Part shown: positions 1,118-4,605 of the stretch, piece after piece | Position numbering within the stretch: position 1 is the first letter of the stretch | Layout: each line of letters starts with the position of its first letter | Translations under genes and position numbers: made by a program | The notes under the pieces: model-generated | The model's database searches: none | Told to the model about the DNA's origin: nothing | Seen by the model: the letters and a program-made list of their open reading frames with translations, nothing else | Source of the DNA: JALSIF01 sp026981635 [NCBI: bacterium] | GTDB taxonomy: Bacteria > 4484-113 > JALSIF01 | DNA: 5,206 nt | NCBI GenBank assembly: GCA_026981635.1 | Contig: JALSIF010000046.1 | Location: forward strand, 1 to 5,206 | Direction: 5' to 3'

Positions 1118-2419
1118 CTCCTTCTCCCCGGTGGAGAAGGGGAGGGGCGGGGTGTACCACCCTCCATAGGCCCCCATGTCGCTCCTTGAGCCGTCGGGGT
1201 CAAAGATGTTTGGGTCCCCCGCGTCAATCAGGGGAGAATCTGGCCGGAGGTGAAAGTCAAACTCCGAGACGAAGCGGGGGTCAACCGATAGGTTTCCCCC
1301 CTTCCCCGTCTGGTCCTCAATGCCCAGGTATTCCCCCTCCCGGTTGCCATAGACATCGTTGTAGGCGAGGAATACCTGCTTGCTGTTGATCCACACCCCC
1401 ACCCGGGGAGCCACCCACTGGTAGCGGCTGCCGTTGAAGGCCACGATGTTGTTTACCATGTTCAGGGTTGAGGTGGGGTGCCAGGCGGCCACCCCCACAT
1501 TGCCGTGGTAGGCGATGACGTTGTTGTAGAGGTCCAGTCGGCCTCGGTCGGCGGCGATGGCCCCCCAGCCTAGGGTGTGGTGGATGCGATTGCGGCTGGC
1601 AAAGATGTAGGAGCTGCCAAAGGCCCCCAGCCCCTTCCAGTAGCCGCTCACCTCGTTGTCAATCACCACCGCCCGGCTGTCCCAGGTGGTGGCGATGCCC
1701 ACTCCCCGCCCCCTCAGCACCCGGTTGCGGTAGGCGAGGAGGAACCCTCCCCGGTAGAGGGTGATGCCGTCCCAGCCGTTGCGGGTGATCAGGTTGTCGT
1801 GGGCGACGATAAAGGCCCCCTCGCGGCCAAAGATGCCCCCCACCCCCACCACCACCCCCTGGGTGTCCCCTTCGTTGTCGCGGATCACCACCTGGTCAAT
1901 CTCCACCAGGCTCCGCCTCACCACCACCGCCGCATCGGCTGCCCGCCCGTCGGGGTCCCGCTTGCCGCCGGTAATGGTCAGGTTGGTGATCCTCACCCGG
2001 GGAGCATCCTCAATGTAGACCCCATATCCTGCCCCCGTCTCTAGCACCGTCAGCTCCCGGCCCGAGCCTTTCAGGGTTAGGCTCTTTCCCCGGATGACAA
2101 AGCCGGTGGTGGCCTCGGCCCCCTCGCCGGGGTCTAGGCAGTTGGCGCACACCGGATCGTGAAAGCTTTCCACCTCTGCCCGGTAGGTGCCGGGAAGGAG
2201 CTGGATCACCGCCCCGTCGGGTGCCCGCTCAATGGCCACCTCCAGGCTCCGGAAGGGATCGCCCTTGGTACCCGTCCCCACCTTTCCGTCCCCAAGGTCG
2301 TCCACATAGACCACCGGTGGACCCTGCTCCGGGAAGGCTTCCCCCCTGGGGTAGGCCGAAGACAGGGCTGAAAGCCCCACTGCCAGCACTAAGGTCCCAT
2401 AAACAGCGGAGATTCTCAT
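1079..2419 (-). CDS. Secreted right-handed parallel beta-helix protein
   Basis: A 446-residue exported protein of the pectate-lyase-like beta-helix superfamily, which includes polysaccharide lyases, hydrolases and binding proteins; the substrate cannot be told. Start chosen at the ATG at 2417-2419 because GGGAGGAGGG (plus-strand 2423-2432) lies just upstream and a signal peptide follows at once (MRISAVYGTLVLAVGLSALSS, 1-21, cut probably near residues 22-28). A TTG start 18 codons upstream would bury the signal peptide. Residues 37-82 (YVDD...GDPFRSLEVAIERAPDGAVIQLLPGTY) match the N-terminal cap of DUF1565-type helices. Repeating rungs with Asn ladders run from about 130 to 360 (DNLITRNGWDGI, RNRVLRGRGVGI, NNVIAYHGNVGV, NNIVAFNG, YNDVYGN). 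The end of the fold shows LRPDSPLIDAGDP (391-403) and DMGAYGG (414-420). A CxxC (91-94) may form a disulfide. The last 26 residues run through a hairpin repeat and the antisense of the neighbouring gene. No catalytic triad is obvious. Confidence 0.85.
   Translation of the reverse strand: MRISAVYGTLVLAVGLSALSSAYPRGEAFPEQGPPVVYVDDLGDGKVGTGTKGDPFRSLEVAIERAPDGAVIQLLPGTYRAEVESFHDPVCANCLDPGEGAEATTGFVIRGKSLTLKGSGRELTVLETGAGYGVYIEDAPRVRITNLTITGGKRDPDGRAADAAVVVRRSLVEIDQVVIRDNEGDTQGVVVGVGGIFGREGAFIVAHDNLITRNGWDGITLYRGGFLLAYRNRVLRGRGVGIATTWDSRAVVIDNEVSGYWKGLGAFGSSYIFASRNRIHHTLGWGAIAADRGRLDLYNNVIAYHGNVGVAAWHPTSTLNMVNNIVAFNGSRYQWVAPRVGVWINSKQVFLAYNDVYGNREGEYLGIEDQTGKGGNLSVDPRFVSEFDFHLRPDSPLIDAGDPNIFDPDGSRSDMGAYGGWYTPPLPFSTGEKESGVEVNQAAPAL
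1118..1142. repeat. GC-rich hairpin palindrome at the convergent gene ends
   Basis: CTCCTTCTCC (1118-1127) pairs with GGAGAAGGGG (1133-1142) around the loop CCGGT, giving ten pairs with one T-G wobble. It begins right after the stop of the small plus-strand gene, so it may end or protect that transcript, but no T-run follows on either strand, so it is not a classical intrinsic terminator. It lies inside the coding frame of the minus-strand beta-helix gene (residues about 426-434). Hairpins of this composition, followed by G-rich sequence (GGAGGGGCGGGG), are often dispersed repeats; only this one copy is visible here. Confidence 0.55.
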
Positions 2420-2422
2420 GCG

Positions 2423-2432
2423 CCCTCCTCCC
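2423..2432 (-). promoter_or_regulatory. Ribosome binding site deciding the beta-helix start
   Basis: Read on the minus strand this is GGGAGGAGGG, three bases before the ATG at 2419 (GGAGG core about 5-6 bases away). It picks this ATG over the in-frame TTG at 2473 and ATG at 2443, and the hydrophobic signal peptide begins directly after it. Confidence 0.75.
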
Positions 2433-2466
2433 GCAGAAATCATCGGGGGAATTTTGCCAAAAAGCC

Positions 2467-2495
2467 TTGACAAGCTTCGCAGAGTACTCTAAGAT
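2467..2495 (+). promoter_or_regulatory. Sigma70-type promoter of the membrane protein operon
   Basis: An exact TTGACA -35 box (2467-2472) is followed, after a 17-base spacer, by TAAGAT (2490-2495), a good -10 box. Transcription would start near 2502, leaving a leader of about 22 bases before the ATG at 2525. The -10 box lies inside the perfect inverted repeat at 2481-2507, so a protein bound there would block RNA polymerase. Confidence 0.75.
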
Positions 2496-2507
2496 TTAGA
2501 GTACTCT
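2481..2507. promoter_or_regulatory. Perfect 27-base inverted repeat, probable repressor operator
   Basis: The arms AGAGTACTCTAA (2481-2492) and TTAGAGTACTCT (2496-2507) are exact reverse complements around the centre GAT. In addition, the 10-base core AGAGTACTCT in each arm (2481-2490 and 2498-2507) is itself a palindrome, so the site can be read as two complete dimer sites whose centres are 17 bases apart. It covers the -10 box and the expected transcription start of the plus-strand operon. The nearest candidate ligand is the winged-helix regulator at 3736-4062, the last gene of the same operon, which suggests negative autoregulation. The site is exact from the sequence; the pairing with that regulator is inference. 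Confidence 0.75.
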
Positions 2508-2514
2508 ATCCCAA
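2486..2514 (-). promoter_or_regulatory. Possible weak divergent promoter for the beta-helix gene
   Basis: On the minus strand, TTGGGA (plus 2509-2514) and TAGAGT (plus 2486-2491) are separated by 17 bases; each matches four of six consensus bases. It would overlap the plus-strand promoter face to face and span most of the inverted repeat, leaving a leader of about 60 bases before the ATG at 2419. The match is weak and could be chance. Confidence 0.25.
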
Positions 2515-2520
2515 GGAGGT
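2513..2520 (+). promoter_or_regulatory. Strong ribosome binding site of the first membrane gene
   Basis: AAGGAGGT is a near-perfect anti-16S match four bases before the ATG at 2525. The second membrane gene carries the same CCAAGGAGG string (3130-3138), seven bases before its ATG, so the duplicated unit probably included the translation signal. Confidence 0.8.
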
Positions 2521-2524
2521 TGTC

Positions 2525-3106
2525 ATGGTTCAGGAGAGTTCAGGAATCGGCGACCTCACCTACGTGAGGCAGGTGGTGGAGCGGGCTGGCGACCGCTCCG
2601 TCACTCCCCCCGCCTGCATGTACATGTGGGCGGTGATTGTGCTGGCGGGCTTTGCCCTGTTTGACCTTGCGCCCCGCTACGGACTTCTCTACTGGCTGGC
2701 CATGCCGGTGGTGGGGGCGGTGGCCTCCGTCTTCATCGGCAGAAGCTACCGCCGGGCGCTGGGGATAAGGGACCGCCGACTGGGACTGAGGATCGGCTCC
2801 CACTGGTTCACCTTCCTTTTGGGCTACCTGATGCTCTTGGTGCTACCCCTTACCGGCCAGATCACCTGGCCCATCTTCGGGGTGCTGATGATGCTGCTTA
2901 CCTCCCTCTTCTTCCTTACCGCCTCCTTCCACCTTGACCGCCGCTACTTGCCCCTGGGCATCGTTACTGCCCTCATCTACCTGGCCCTGCTTTTCCTGCC
3001 CATCTTCAGCTGGACTCTGATTGGGGCGGTCTTTGCCGCCGGCTTCGTCATGGCAGGCTGGCTGGCCGGCGCCAGCCGCACTTCTGCTCACACTGGGGGG
3101 GAGTAG
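2525..3106 (+). CDS. Uncharacterised six-helix membrane protein, paralogue 1
   Basis: A 193-residue integral membrane protein that I cannot assign to a characterised family. Seen: a soluble N-terminus of about 29 residues carrying GIGDLTYVRQVVE (7-19) and DRSVTPP (23-29), then six likely membrane segments (about 30-48, 54-72, 93-110, 115-134, 141-159, 162-181). A basic loop at 73-93 (RSYRRALGIRDRRLGLRIGSH) between helices 2 and 3 is probably cytoplasmic by the positive-inside rule, which also puts the N-terminus inside. A short polar tail follows. There is no signal peptide, nucleotide-binding motif or clear transporter signature. It is first in a three-gene operon under the TTGACA/TAAGAT promoter and is a tandem paralogue of the next gene (about 45% identical over the first 160 residues, no gap, counted by hand). 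Coupling to a winged-helix regulator suggests a stress- or ligand-responsive membrane function; the role itself is unknown. Confidence 0.85.
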   Translation: MVQESSGIGDLTYVRQVVERAGDRSVTPPACMYMWAVIVLAGFALFDLAPRYGLLYWLAMPVVGAVASVFIGRSYRRALGIRDRRLGLRIGSHWFTFLLGYLMLLVLPLTGQITWPIFGVLMMLLTSLFFLTASFHLDRRYLPLGIVTALIYLALLFLPIFSWTLIGAVFAAGFVMAGWLAGASRTSAHTGGE

Positions 3107-3145
3107 TAGGGTTGCCAGTCAAACCCCATCCAAGGAGGAACTGAA

Positions 3146-3736
3146 ATGGAACAGAGGACGACAGGTATAAGTGACCTCTCCTACGTGAGGGAGGTGGTTG
3201 AGCAGGTGGAGGATCGTCCCATCACCCCGCCCATCATCTTTTACCTGTGGGCGCTCATTGTCCTTGGCGGCTACCTGGTGGACCACTTCCAGCATTCTCT
3301 CGTTTTCAGCTACTGGACGGTGGTCCCCCTGCTGGGGGCCATCCTCAGTGCCTACCTGGGCAACCGCTACTGGCGGAATCTGGGCATCCAGGCCCGCCGG
3401 CTGGGTCGCCGCTACGGCCTCCACTGGCTGATCTTCTTTGCCGGCTTTGGGCTGCTTCTTCCCGCCGTCAAGGCCGGGCAGATGGACTGGCATGCCTTTG
3501 GCGTGATGGTGATGCTGCTTGTGGCCCTCTTCTACCTGCTTGCCGCCCTCCACTTGGACGGCCGCTTCCTGCTGGTCGGCCTGGTGCTGGTGGGAGCCTA
3601 CCTGACCATGCTCTACTTTCCGGCCGTAAGTGGTGTGGTGCTCATCGGTGCAGTGGTGGGAGCCCTGGTGCTGACCGGGCTGATCATCCAGTTCTCCGGC
3701 TCCTATGCCAGGTCCCTGGCTGGGAGGAGGGAGTGA
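3146..3736 (+). CDS. Uncharacterised six-helix membrane protein, paralogue 2
   Basis: A 196-residue integral membrane protein with the same plan as its upstream neighbour: a cytoplasmic N-terminus with GISDLSYVREVVE (7-19) and DRPITPP (23-29), six likely membrane segments (about 30-48, 54-72, 94-110, 116-135, 141-158, 162-182), and the basic loop YWRNLGIQARRLGRRYGLHW (75-94). Residues kept in both copies include Y33, W35, P61, G64, R77, LGI 79-81, RRLG 84-87, HW 93-94, GQ 111-112, W115, FGV 118-120, HLD 136-138 and P159. The two diverge most in the helix 1-2 loop (43-55), the end of helix 3 and the last 35 residues, where this copy ends in a basic tail (SYARSLAGRRE). It starts 39 bases after paralogue 1, with AAGGAGG (3132-3138) seven bases upstream of its ATG. 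Its stop overlaps the regulator start by one base. A heteromeric pair is plausible but not shown. Confidence 0.85.
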   Translation: MEQRTTGISDLSYVREVVEQVEDRPITPPIIFYLWALIVLGGYLVDHFQHSLVFSYWTVVPLLGAILSAYLGNRYWRNLGIQARRLGRRYGLHWLIFFAGFGLLLPAVKAGQMDWHAFGVMVMLLVALFYLLAALHLDGRFLLVGLVLVGAYLTMLYFPAVSGVVLIGAVVGALVLTGLIIQFSGSYARSLAGRRE

Positions 3737-4062
3737 TGGCGGTGCGGGAGGAAGGCTCTCCCCAGAAGATCAACTCCGGTCTGGACCGGCTGCTGGAGCA
3801 CCGCACCCGCCTGGCTGCCCTGGTGCTGCTTACCCACTTTGACGAGCTGAGTTTCGTGCGCCTGCGCGACGACCTGGGGGAGACCGACGGCAACCTGGGC
3901 GCCCACCTGCGGAAGCTGGAGGAGGCCGGCTACATTGATGTGCGCAAGGAGTTTCAGGGGCGAAAGCCCATCACCTGGTACTCCATAACCAACCGGGGCC
4001 GCGAGGCCCTGCGCAAGCACCTTGCCACCCTGGAGCGACTCATCCAGGAGGCCAAGGTCTAG
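3736..4062 (+). CDS. Winged-helix transcriptional regulator (HTH_34 type)
   Basis: A 108-residue DNA-binding protein consisting of little more than one winged helix-turn-helix domain. Seen: LDRLLEHRTRLAALVLLTHFDELSF (about 16-40) as the first helices; VRLRDDLGETDGNLGAHLRKLEEAGYIDV (41-69), the helix-turn-helix with the family's TDGNLxxHLxxLEEAGY text; the wing KEFQGRKPITWYSIT (71-85); then NRGREALRKHLATLERLI (86-103), a C-terminal dimerisation helix. This matches the PF13601-like group, relatives of ArsR/MarR. No cysteines or metal-site clusters are present, so a metal sensor of the ArsR kind is unlikely. The start at 3736 shares one base with the preceding stop (TGATG), with GGAGG upstream inside that gene, so translation is coupled. 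An upstream in-frame extension to 3247 is only a shadow of the membrane gene. It probably binds the inverted repeat at 2481-2507 and represses its own operon (inference). Confidence 0.88.
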   Translation: MAVREEGSPQKINSGLDRLLEHRTRLAALVLLTHFDELSFVRLRDDLGETDGNLGAHLRKLEEAGYIDVRKEFQGRKPITWYSITNRGREALRKHLATLERLIQEAKV

Positions 4063-4075
4063 CCTCTTTCCAATG

Positions 4076-4118
4076 AAAAGCGGGGGAGGGCTGGTTCAGC
4101 TCTCCCCCGCCTGCTTTT
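4076..4118. terminator. Bidirectional intrinsic terminator between convergent operons
   Basis: A stem of 14 pairs (4080-4093 with 4097-4110, one G-T wobble) closes on the three-base loop GTT, with a GGGGG/CCCCC core. On the minus strand the stem is followed at once by TTTT (plus AAAA, 4076-4079). On the plus strand TTTT follows after CTGC (4115-4118). It can therefore end both the membrane-regulator operon and the thiolase-DinB operon. The stop codon of the DinB gene (4096-4098) lies at the loop, so the terminator includes that gene's last codons. Confidence 0.85.
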
Positions 4119-4605
4119 CGGGGCGAGGGAAGCCGTAAAGCTCCAGGGTCCCCATCTCCTCACCCAGTTGCTTCAGGTAGTGGAAGAGCTGGTGGCGGTG
4201 GCTTGACATGTGCTCAAAGCCAAACAGCAGCAGTTCTCCGATGCGCTGGCGGCCAAAGATGGGATGGTCCACCTGCCGGTCAAACTTCTCCTCGGGAATC
4301 TCCTCAAGCACCCTGAGGTTTTCCTCCGCCACCTGGCGAAGCTTCTTTATCGCCTCCCCCGGGGTCATCCATCCCTCCTCTGCCCGGGGCATCCGCCTCA
4401 CCTCTTCCTCACTGGGGGGAGGTGTCTTGACGAAGCGGGTGGGGAAGTTCATGCTCTCCACCAGGTGGTTTAGTAGCTGGCCCAGCTTCATAGTGGTGGG
4501 GCAGGGGGTCCAGTCAAGCTTTTCCTCGGGCACCCTTTTGAAGAGTTCCTCCAGGCCGAAGGTGTAGCGGCGGTAGAGCCTGGTTAGATAGTCCTTGATC
4601 TGCAT
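4096..4605 (-). CDS. DinB-family four-helix metal-binding protein
   Basis: A 169-residue cytoplasmic protein of the DinB/YfiT-like superfamily: four-helix bundles that bind a divalent metal through three histidines and, in characterised members, act as thiol-dependent transferases or related enzymes; most are uncharacterised. Seen: an N-terminal helix (about 1-24), VPEEKLDWTPCPTTMKLGQLLNHLVE (25-50) with the likely ligand H47, the second half with helices around 82-103, and EHMSSHRHQLFHYLKQLG (131-148) holding H132 and H136, the family's HxxxH pair. The usual triad therefore appears complete. Length is typical. The ATG at 4605 is supported by AAGGAGG (plus 4611-4617) five bases upstream. It starts 15 bases after the thiolase stop, so the two are almost certainly co-transcribed, and a terminator overlaps its end. 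Whether it serves thiol or acyl-CoA chemistry with the thiolase is inference from position only. Confidence 0.85.
   Translation of the reverse strand: MQIKDYLTRLYRRYTFGLEELFKRVPEEKLDWTPCPTTMKLGQLLNHLVESMNFPTRFVKTPPPSEEEVRRMPRAEEGWMTPGEAIKKLRQVAEENLRVLEEIPEEKFDRQVDHPIFGRQRIGELLLFGFEHMSSHRHQLFHYLKQLGEEMGTLELYGFPRPEKQAGES

Follow-up and report, generated by a model that had tools for sequence, protein, structure and literature searches.

The autorepressors of the MarR type (such as OhrR, MepR and MarR) act as winged-helix dimers, each repressing its own operon through a dyad that lies over the promoter. They are fold matches of the regulator encoded in the window (the whole stretch of 5,206 nucleotides analysed here) and share a fold region with it, but their operator is a different one, and the membrane protein co-transcribed with the regulator in the window belongs to no named Pfam family. 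The regulator (3736–4062, + strand, 108 residues) matches the HTH_34 family (PF13601, E 1.5e-26; 92.8 bits, gathering cut-off 27), in agreement with an earlier note on this DNA that had placed a winged-helix regulator at the end of the operon. Its AlphaFold2 model (mean pLDDT 92.9) has the winged-helix fold of a solved relative, 1ub9, the best PDB match (Z 15.9, rmsd 2.3, 98 aligned). A profile match to this protein (PH1061 of Pyrococcus horikoshii, E 1.4e-14) spans the same helix, which reads PGNLDSHIR in 1ub9 and DGNLGAHLR in the window regulator; unlike the latter, 1ub9 comes with no more than a deposition as hypothetical protein or regulator homologue. The regulator is not a match to the MarR profile (PF01047, 15.2 bits, under the cut-off of 24.6). 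A likeness to the ArsR/SmtB proteins lies in the Pfam HTH_5 score, which is marginally passed (23.1, cut-off 22). In contrast to these metalloregulators, the protein contains no cysteine, reaches 31.6 bits with their NCBIfam model (under the cut-off of 55) and has HTH_34 as its best family. Among the literature titles listed, none reports an operator, a partner gene or a rule of recognition for HTH_34.

The operon comprises three genes on the + strand. The first two encode predicted membrane proteins 1 (2525–3106, 193 aa) and 2 (3146–3736, 196 aa), tandem relatives with 44% identity; protein 1 is also a homologue of the protein preceding the regulator in L050 and L154. The stop of the second gene and the regulator ATG overlap by one base. 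A terminator-like stem of 14 pairs follows the operon (4080–4110, + strand) and is the longest of 4 such sites in the region (1.7 expected). No Pfam family scored above cut-off for the two membrane proteins or for seven of their homologues (DUF4006 lies just under it for one). Membrane protein 2 is modelled as all-helical (AlphaFold2, mean pLDDT 83) and gave no fold match in the PDB at E 0.001, an absence that does not show a new fold. The membrane gene is tandem in the window and was assumed to be a single copy at the other loci.

A 105-bp gap separates the operon from a divergent beta-helix gene, the start of which is read as ATG 2419 (− strand), the first ATG before a signal-peptide-like stretch. 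This gap contains a perfect inverted repeat of two 12-nt arms (2481–2492 and 2496–2507) that are 3 nt apart and 100% complementary, as found with a repeat finder and in the sequence itself. The segment 2481–2507 can be written AGAGTACTCT-AAGATTT-AGAGTACTCT; both copies (2481–2490 and 2498–2507) are perfect palindromes and lie 17 apart, so the 12+3+12 arrangement of two 10-base palindromes given in the earlier note is exact. It is the one perfect inverted repeat in the window with arms of 12 or more and a loop no longer than 20, a case met in 5 of 200 simulated sequences (first-order Markov). A promoter scan of 2300–4200 returned a single sigma-70-like site (10/12; mean 0.3 in shuffles), with the −35 box TTGACA at 2467–2472, a spacer of 17 and the −10 box TAAGAT at 2490–2495 (both + strand). 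The repeat thus covers the −10 box behind an exact TTGACA, also as claimed before. The same scan gave no minus-strand promoter-like site for the beta-helix gene. The perfection of the repeat would also suit a function in RNA, as hairpin, attenuator or terminator; however, a repeat that covers the −10 box would for the most part precede the start of transcription, it is not followed by a run of T, and the half-site letters described below are conserved rather than pairing alone, which makes this explanation practically negligible.

In its own assembly (1.75 Mb, 317 contigs, 85% complete) the window site is the sole match to the 27-bp pattern (20 named bases, at most 3 mismatches). The 8-mer GAGTACTC shows no enrichment in this assembly, with 11 sites including the two in the window vs 10 for a reversed control. 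Two further GAGTACTC sites that were read in this assembly both lie on contig C26 inside a 670-codon open frame, and GAGTACTC in L003 is likewise inside an open frame.

Relatives of the regulator were gathered from whole genomes, named genome contigs and plasmid records. In all, 205 regulators were located (window included), of which 188 passed a domain score of 75 and 131 representatives were left at 80% identity; one locus (L025) gave no match, and loci at an identical place were removed by hand. Plasmid records matched in 44 cases, 18 of them examined, and 23 matched when the regulator of L050 was the query. Viral contigs gave no relative, and phage records 2 weak matches. The closest homologue found is that of L050 (56% identity), in a searched set with only 10 genomes from the class and phylum of the window, so close orthologues are outside the sample. 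The group is common: alignment A1 has matches with an E of 1e-20 or lower in 223/395 and 276/395 sampled genomes of two phyla. The gene pair is also recurrent, a hydrophobic protein frame ending at the regulator in 111 of the 131 non-redundant representatives (window included). A hypothetical-protein gene directly before a "transcriptional regulator" is annotated in Thermomicrobium roseum, Aureimonas, Rhodococcus, Parabacteroides, Bacteroides finegoldii and the haloarchaeon Natronosalvus halobius. On a plasmid of the latter (L124) the gene pair is accompanied by an ACTTTG-N5-CAAACT dyad.

A dyad, ACTTTG-N5-CAAAGT, recurs before regulator relatives in several bacterial phyla. It was first spotted by reading upstream regions and counted afterwards. 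In the first set it is present at 68/101 loci vs 2/101 for the reversed motif, a set that contains near-copies. With at most 2 mismatches it precedes 87 of the 131 representatives, vs a mean of 4.7 for 60 permuted half-sites (maximum 24, from GCTTTA, which is close to the motif itself), and an operator-like palindrome is thus conserved beside homologous regulators. The dyad starts a median of 680 bp ahead of the regulator domain, about one membrane-protein gene upstream; in the window the distance is 1250 bp because two membrane genes come first. A more general form, A[C/G]T[T/C]T-N7-A[A/G]A[G/C]T, lies upstream of the regulator in 111/131 representatives at the score thresholds used, 108 sites being within 1300 bp and 3 farther out, the latter from a wider search of all 23 representatives lacking one. 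Some sites near threshold 12 may be chance matches, since second-best sites reach about 12. The remaining 20/131, without a site at these thresholds, include Streptomyces-type regulators (SDSALSK helix). A sigma-70-like promoter is near 58/108 sites (null 5) and is overlapped by 30/108.

In the window the general form corresponds to 2486–2502, ACTCTAAGATTTAGAGT, that is, ACTCT and AGAGT around the spacer AAGATTT. This core aligns with the family dyad and is the same except for C instead of T at base 4; by its letters it is a variant of the putative family-wide operator. ACTCT-N7-AGAGT with TTGACA 18–19 bp ahead, as in the window, is present in L050 and in the f115 group (L154, L128, L129), and in the last three TATATT occupies the dyad position that the −10 box TAAGAT has within the core of the window. 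None of the literature titles listed deals with the family, its operator or the motif, although a prior description may exist. The earlier proposal that the palindrome is the binding motif of the regulator stands in part: an operator-like dyad is kept beside homologues, but the unit is the 17-bp dyad.

The regulators differ at two positions that covary with the dyad. A T-x-G-N-L-z motif, where x is residue 51 and z residue 55, opens the predicted recognition helix (51–63 in the window, with Asp51 and Gly55). The eight representatives with Gly55 are those of the window, L050, L154, L212, L139, L029 (Paenibacillus), L123 (Rhodococcus plasmid) and L224 (Hoyosella plasmid), and all 8 have C at base 4 on both halves, the ACTCT form, against 1/103 for other regulators (Fisher 2e-11, which ignores relatedness). 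Two of the Gly cases (L029 and L139) come from the wider upstream search. The L029 site is 2.3 kb upstream of the regulator, ahead of genes that presumably encode an ABC transporter. Ser is at residue 55 in all 30 loci L087–L116, from the same phylum as the Gly-type L212, and C is on one half in 11/76 Ser-type sites. The sole exception outside the Gly type is L122 (Azospirillum plasmid), with Asp55 and ACTCTG-N5-CAGAGT, 1575 bp upstream of the regulator domain and ahead of an MFS permease gene; this suggests that Asp55 may select C at base 4 too. For base 2, Lys, Arg, Gln or Ser at residue 51 goes with G on both halves in 11/12 cases, against 1/92 for Asp or Glu (Fisher 6e-13, again ignoring relatedness), the exceptions being L200 and L130. 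The test leaves out Phe, Trp and Pro at residue 51 (7 representatives with a site); Phe and Trp are C-type or mixed at base 2. The pairing of C with Asp, and of G with Lys or Arg, is consistent with textbook contacts.

When all alignment columns were scanned, residue 55 came first for base 4 (0.406/0.406 bit; next column 0.191) and residue 51 for base 2 (0.388/0.494; next 0.221). These are alignment columns 52 and 48, respectively, the alignment beginning at residue 4. The scoring of sites does not favour the rules, because C and G at base 2, and C and T at base 4, were scored equally. Both rules were fixed in writing before later loci were analysed. In these, C was on both halves at base 4 in 4/4 Gly and 0/51 Ser or Ala cases (on one half only in 8/51), and G was on both halves at base 2 in 4/5 Lys, Arg, Gln or Ser cases and 1/49 Asp or Glu cases, 47/49 of the latter having C on both. 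Some of the later loci were searched for with a query derived from two regulators of the Gly type; this raises the share of Gly types but is blind to operators. A quick tree that excluded the helix columns calls for 5 changes in the case of Gly and 6 in that of the C operator. On well-supported branches each rule has only 2 independent contrasts, which agree in nearly all random pairings, although two pairs cannot reach significance. Phylogenetic independence of the covariation is suggested, not proved.

The computed features (dyad, promoter overlap, conservation, residue-base covariation and operon architecture) argue that the window site is, in all likelihood, the autoregulatory operator of the operon for membrane protein 1, membrane protein 2 and the HTH_34 regulator, from which a regulator dimer on the −10 box would repress. 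It is very probable that the operon's own regulator reads the palindrome as a DNA switch. The dimer may read the core dyad with its two recognition helices, Asp51 matching C at base 2 and Gly55 matching C, usually T in the family, at base 4. Bound in this way it would block RNA polymerase and hence its own operon, as expected because TAAGAT forms the centre of the dyad. Release would presumably follow a signal that involves the co-transcribed membrane proteins. Beyond the letters themselves, we infer binding, dimer stoichiometry, repression, cooperativity and the signal. Repression rather than activation is suggested by the geometry, and only 30/108 sites overlap a promoter; that the repression would be tight, as the earlier note has it, is a presumption. 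Another regulator might read the dyad, or the operon's own regulator might be an activator: the pairing is drawn from sequence, and the site has the divergent beta-helix gene on its other side. Against this, the dyad covaries with two residues of the predicted recognition helix of the operon's own regulator, each first among all columns, and it recurs beside the HTH_34 regulator; the pairing is very likely correct on these grounds, and a foreign reader or an activator appears quite improbable. As a separate observation, the operator is also upstream of the beta-helix gene (window 2420–2480).

The nested form of the window site arises from two half-sites that abut the core, AGAGT on the left (2481–2485) and ACTCT on the right (2503–2507), both identified from the sequence and from flank counts in the family. 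Among the 108 representatives, the right half-site is complete in 25 and one letter short in another 35 (null 0.1% and 1.2%). On the left, 6 (window included) have all five letters and 8 lack one (null 0.2% and 2.4%). Complete half-sites on both flanks are found in the window only. ACT are the commonest right-flank letters, and the enrichment is graded. The earlier note had taken the 10-bp palindrome as the unit. As a conserved unit, AGAGTACTCT was rejected, on the flank counts and because an exact AGAGTACTCT is missing from the nearest homologues (L050, L154, L128 and L129), where the 17-bp dyad is kept; the conserved unit is ACTCT-N7-AGAGT, in the family ACTTTG-N5-CAAAGT. To judge from its letters, AGAGTACTCT is the back-to-back junction of two predicted half-sites.

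Each AGAGTACTCT could still be the site of its own dimer, with two dimers whose centres are 17 bp apart. Both copies are perfect palindromes, AGAGTACTCT is also found right of the dyad in L212 and L139, and related AAAGT/ACTTT junctions occur in L026, L011, L052 and L053. However, the nearest homologues have no exact copy on either side, the left flank is seldom complete and the residue-base rules are read on the 17-bp dyad, so that separate dimers on AGAGTACTCT seem improbable. The former suggestion of two dimers thus loses AGAGTACTCT as the unit of each, but with the abutting right half-site enriched across the family, occupancy by several dimers is still plausible. A single dimer contacting the outer half-sites as well, for example with its wings, on one operator of 23–27 bp, has a real though lesser chance. 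It would agree with the graded enrichment of the right flank and with the 3 or 4 of 5 letters kept there by the near homologues. In contrast, a wing contact needs no repeat of the half-site, which the right flank supplies (4–5 of 5 letters) in 60/108, a count confounded by the overlap of this flank with the −35-like acTTGAca in many homologues. The nested palindrome is most simply explained as the fullest example of a half-site array with a 17-bp repeat, apparently occupied by neighbouring dimers: set back to back against the dyad, the outer AGAGT and ACTCT would probably bring in additional dimers, lined up side by side in 17-bp steps. The flanks are taken as accessory, since the nearest homologues keep the dyad and the TTGACA distance, the right flank partly and no complete left flank.

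A second dyad lies 3′ of the regulator gene at 29/101 loci (counted from first-set rows). The next frames were read at 15 loci; in L097, L103, L111, L081 and L013 the frame is one that we take to be prenyl-synthase-like from the MDGNGRW motif, and the others differ. Pfam confirms uppS as the next gene in Aureimonas and creD in Bacteroides finegoldii. No envelope gene of the uppS or creD type follows the window operon, where the next gene is DinB-like and on the other strand. Our guess is that the signal for the module may be envelope-linked. More broadly, HTH_34 and the unnamed all-helical membrane family of about 200 residues may form a self-repressing two-gene sensing module that occurs across several bacterial phyla as well as on a haloarchaeal plasmid. 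Second operators would control neighbouring envelope genes (the prenyl synthase uppS, possibly creD), residue 51 would specify base 2 and residue 55 base 4, and the window would be the most complete array in the set, with four half-sites on one promoter; on this proposal as a whole our belief is evenly divided. For a common group of regulators the comparison supplies an operator together with a two-residue rule of recognition that can be tested. This makes regulons predictable from sequence and may tie the unnamed family of membrane proteins to envelope genes nearby, e.g., uppS and creD. The operator and regulator variants ACTTT, ACTCT and AGTTT are potential orthogonal parts. In five loci with Streptomyces-type regulators (L032–L035 and L037, SDSALSK), a longer palindrome, ACTTTC[C/T]-N5-GGAAAGT, is located at the start of the membrane-protein gene and is possibly the same half-site at another spacing.
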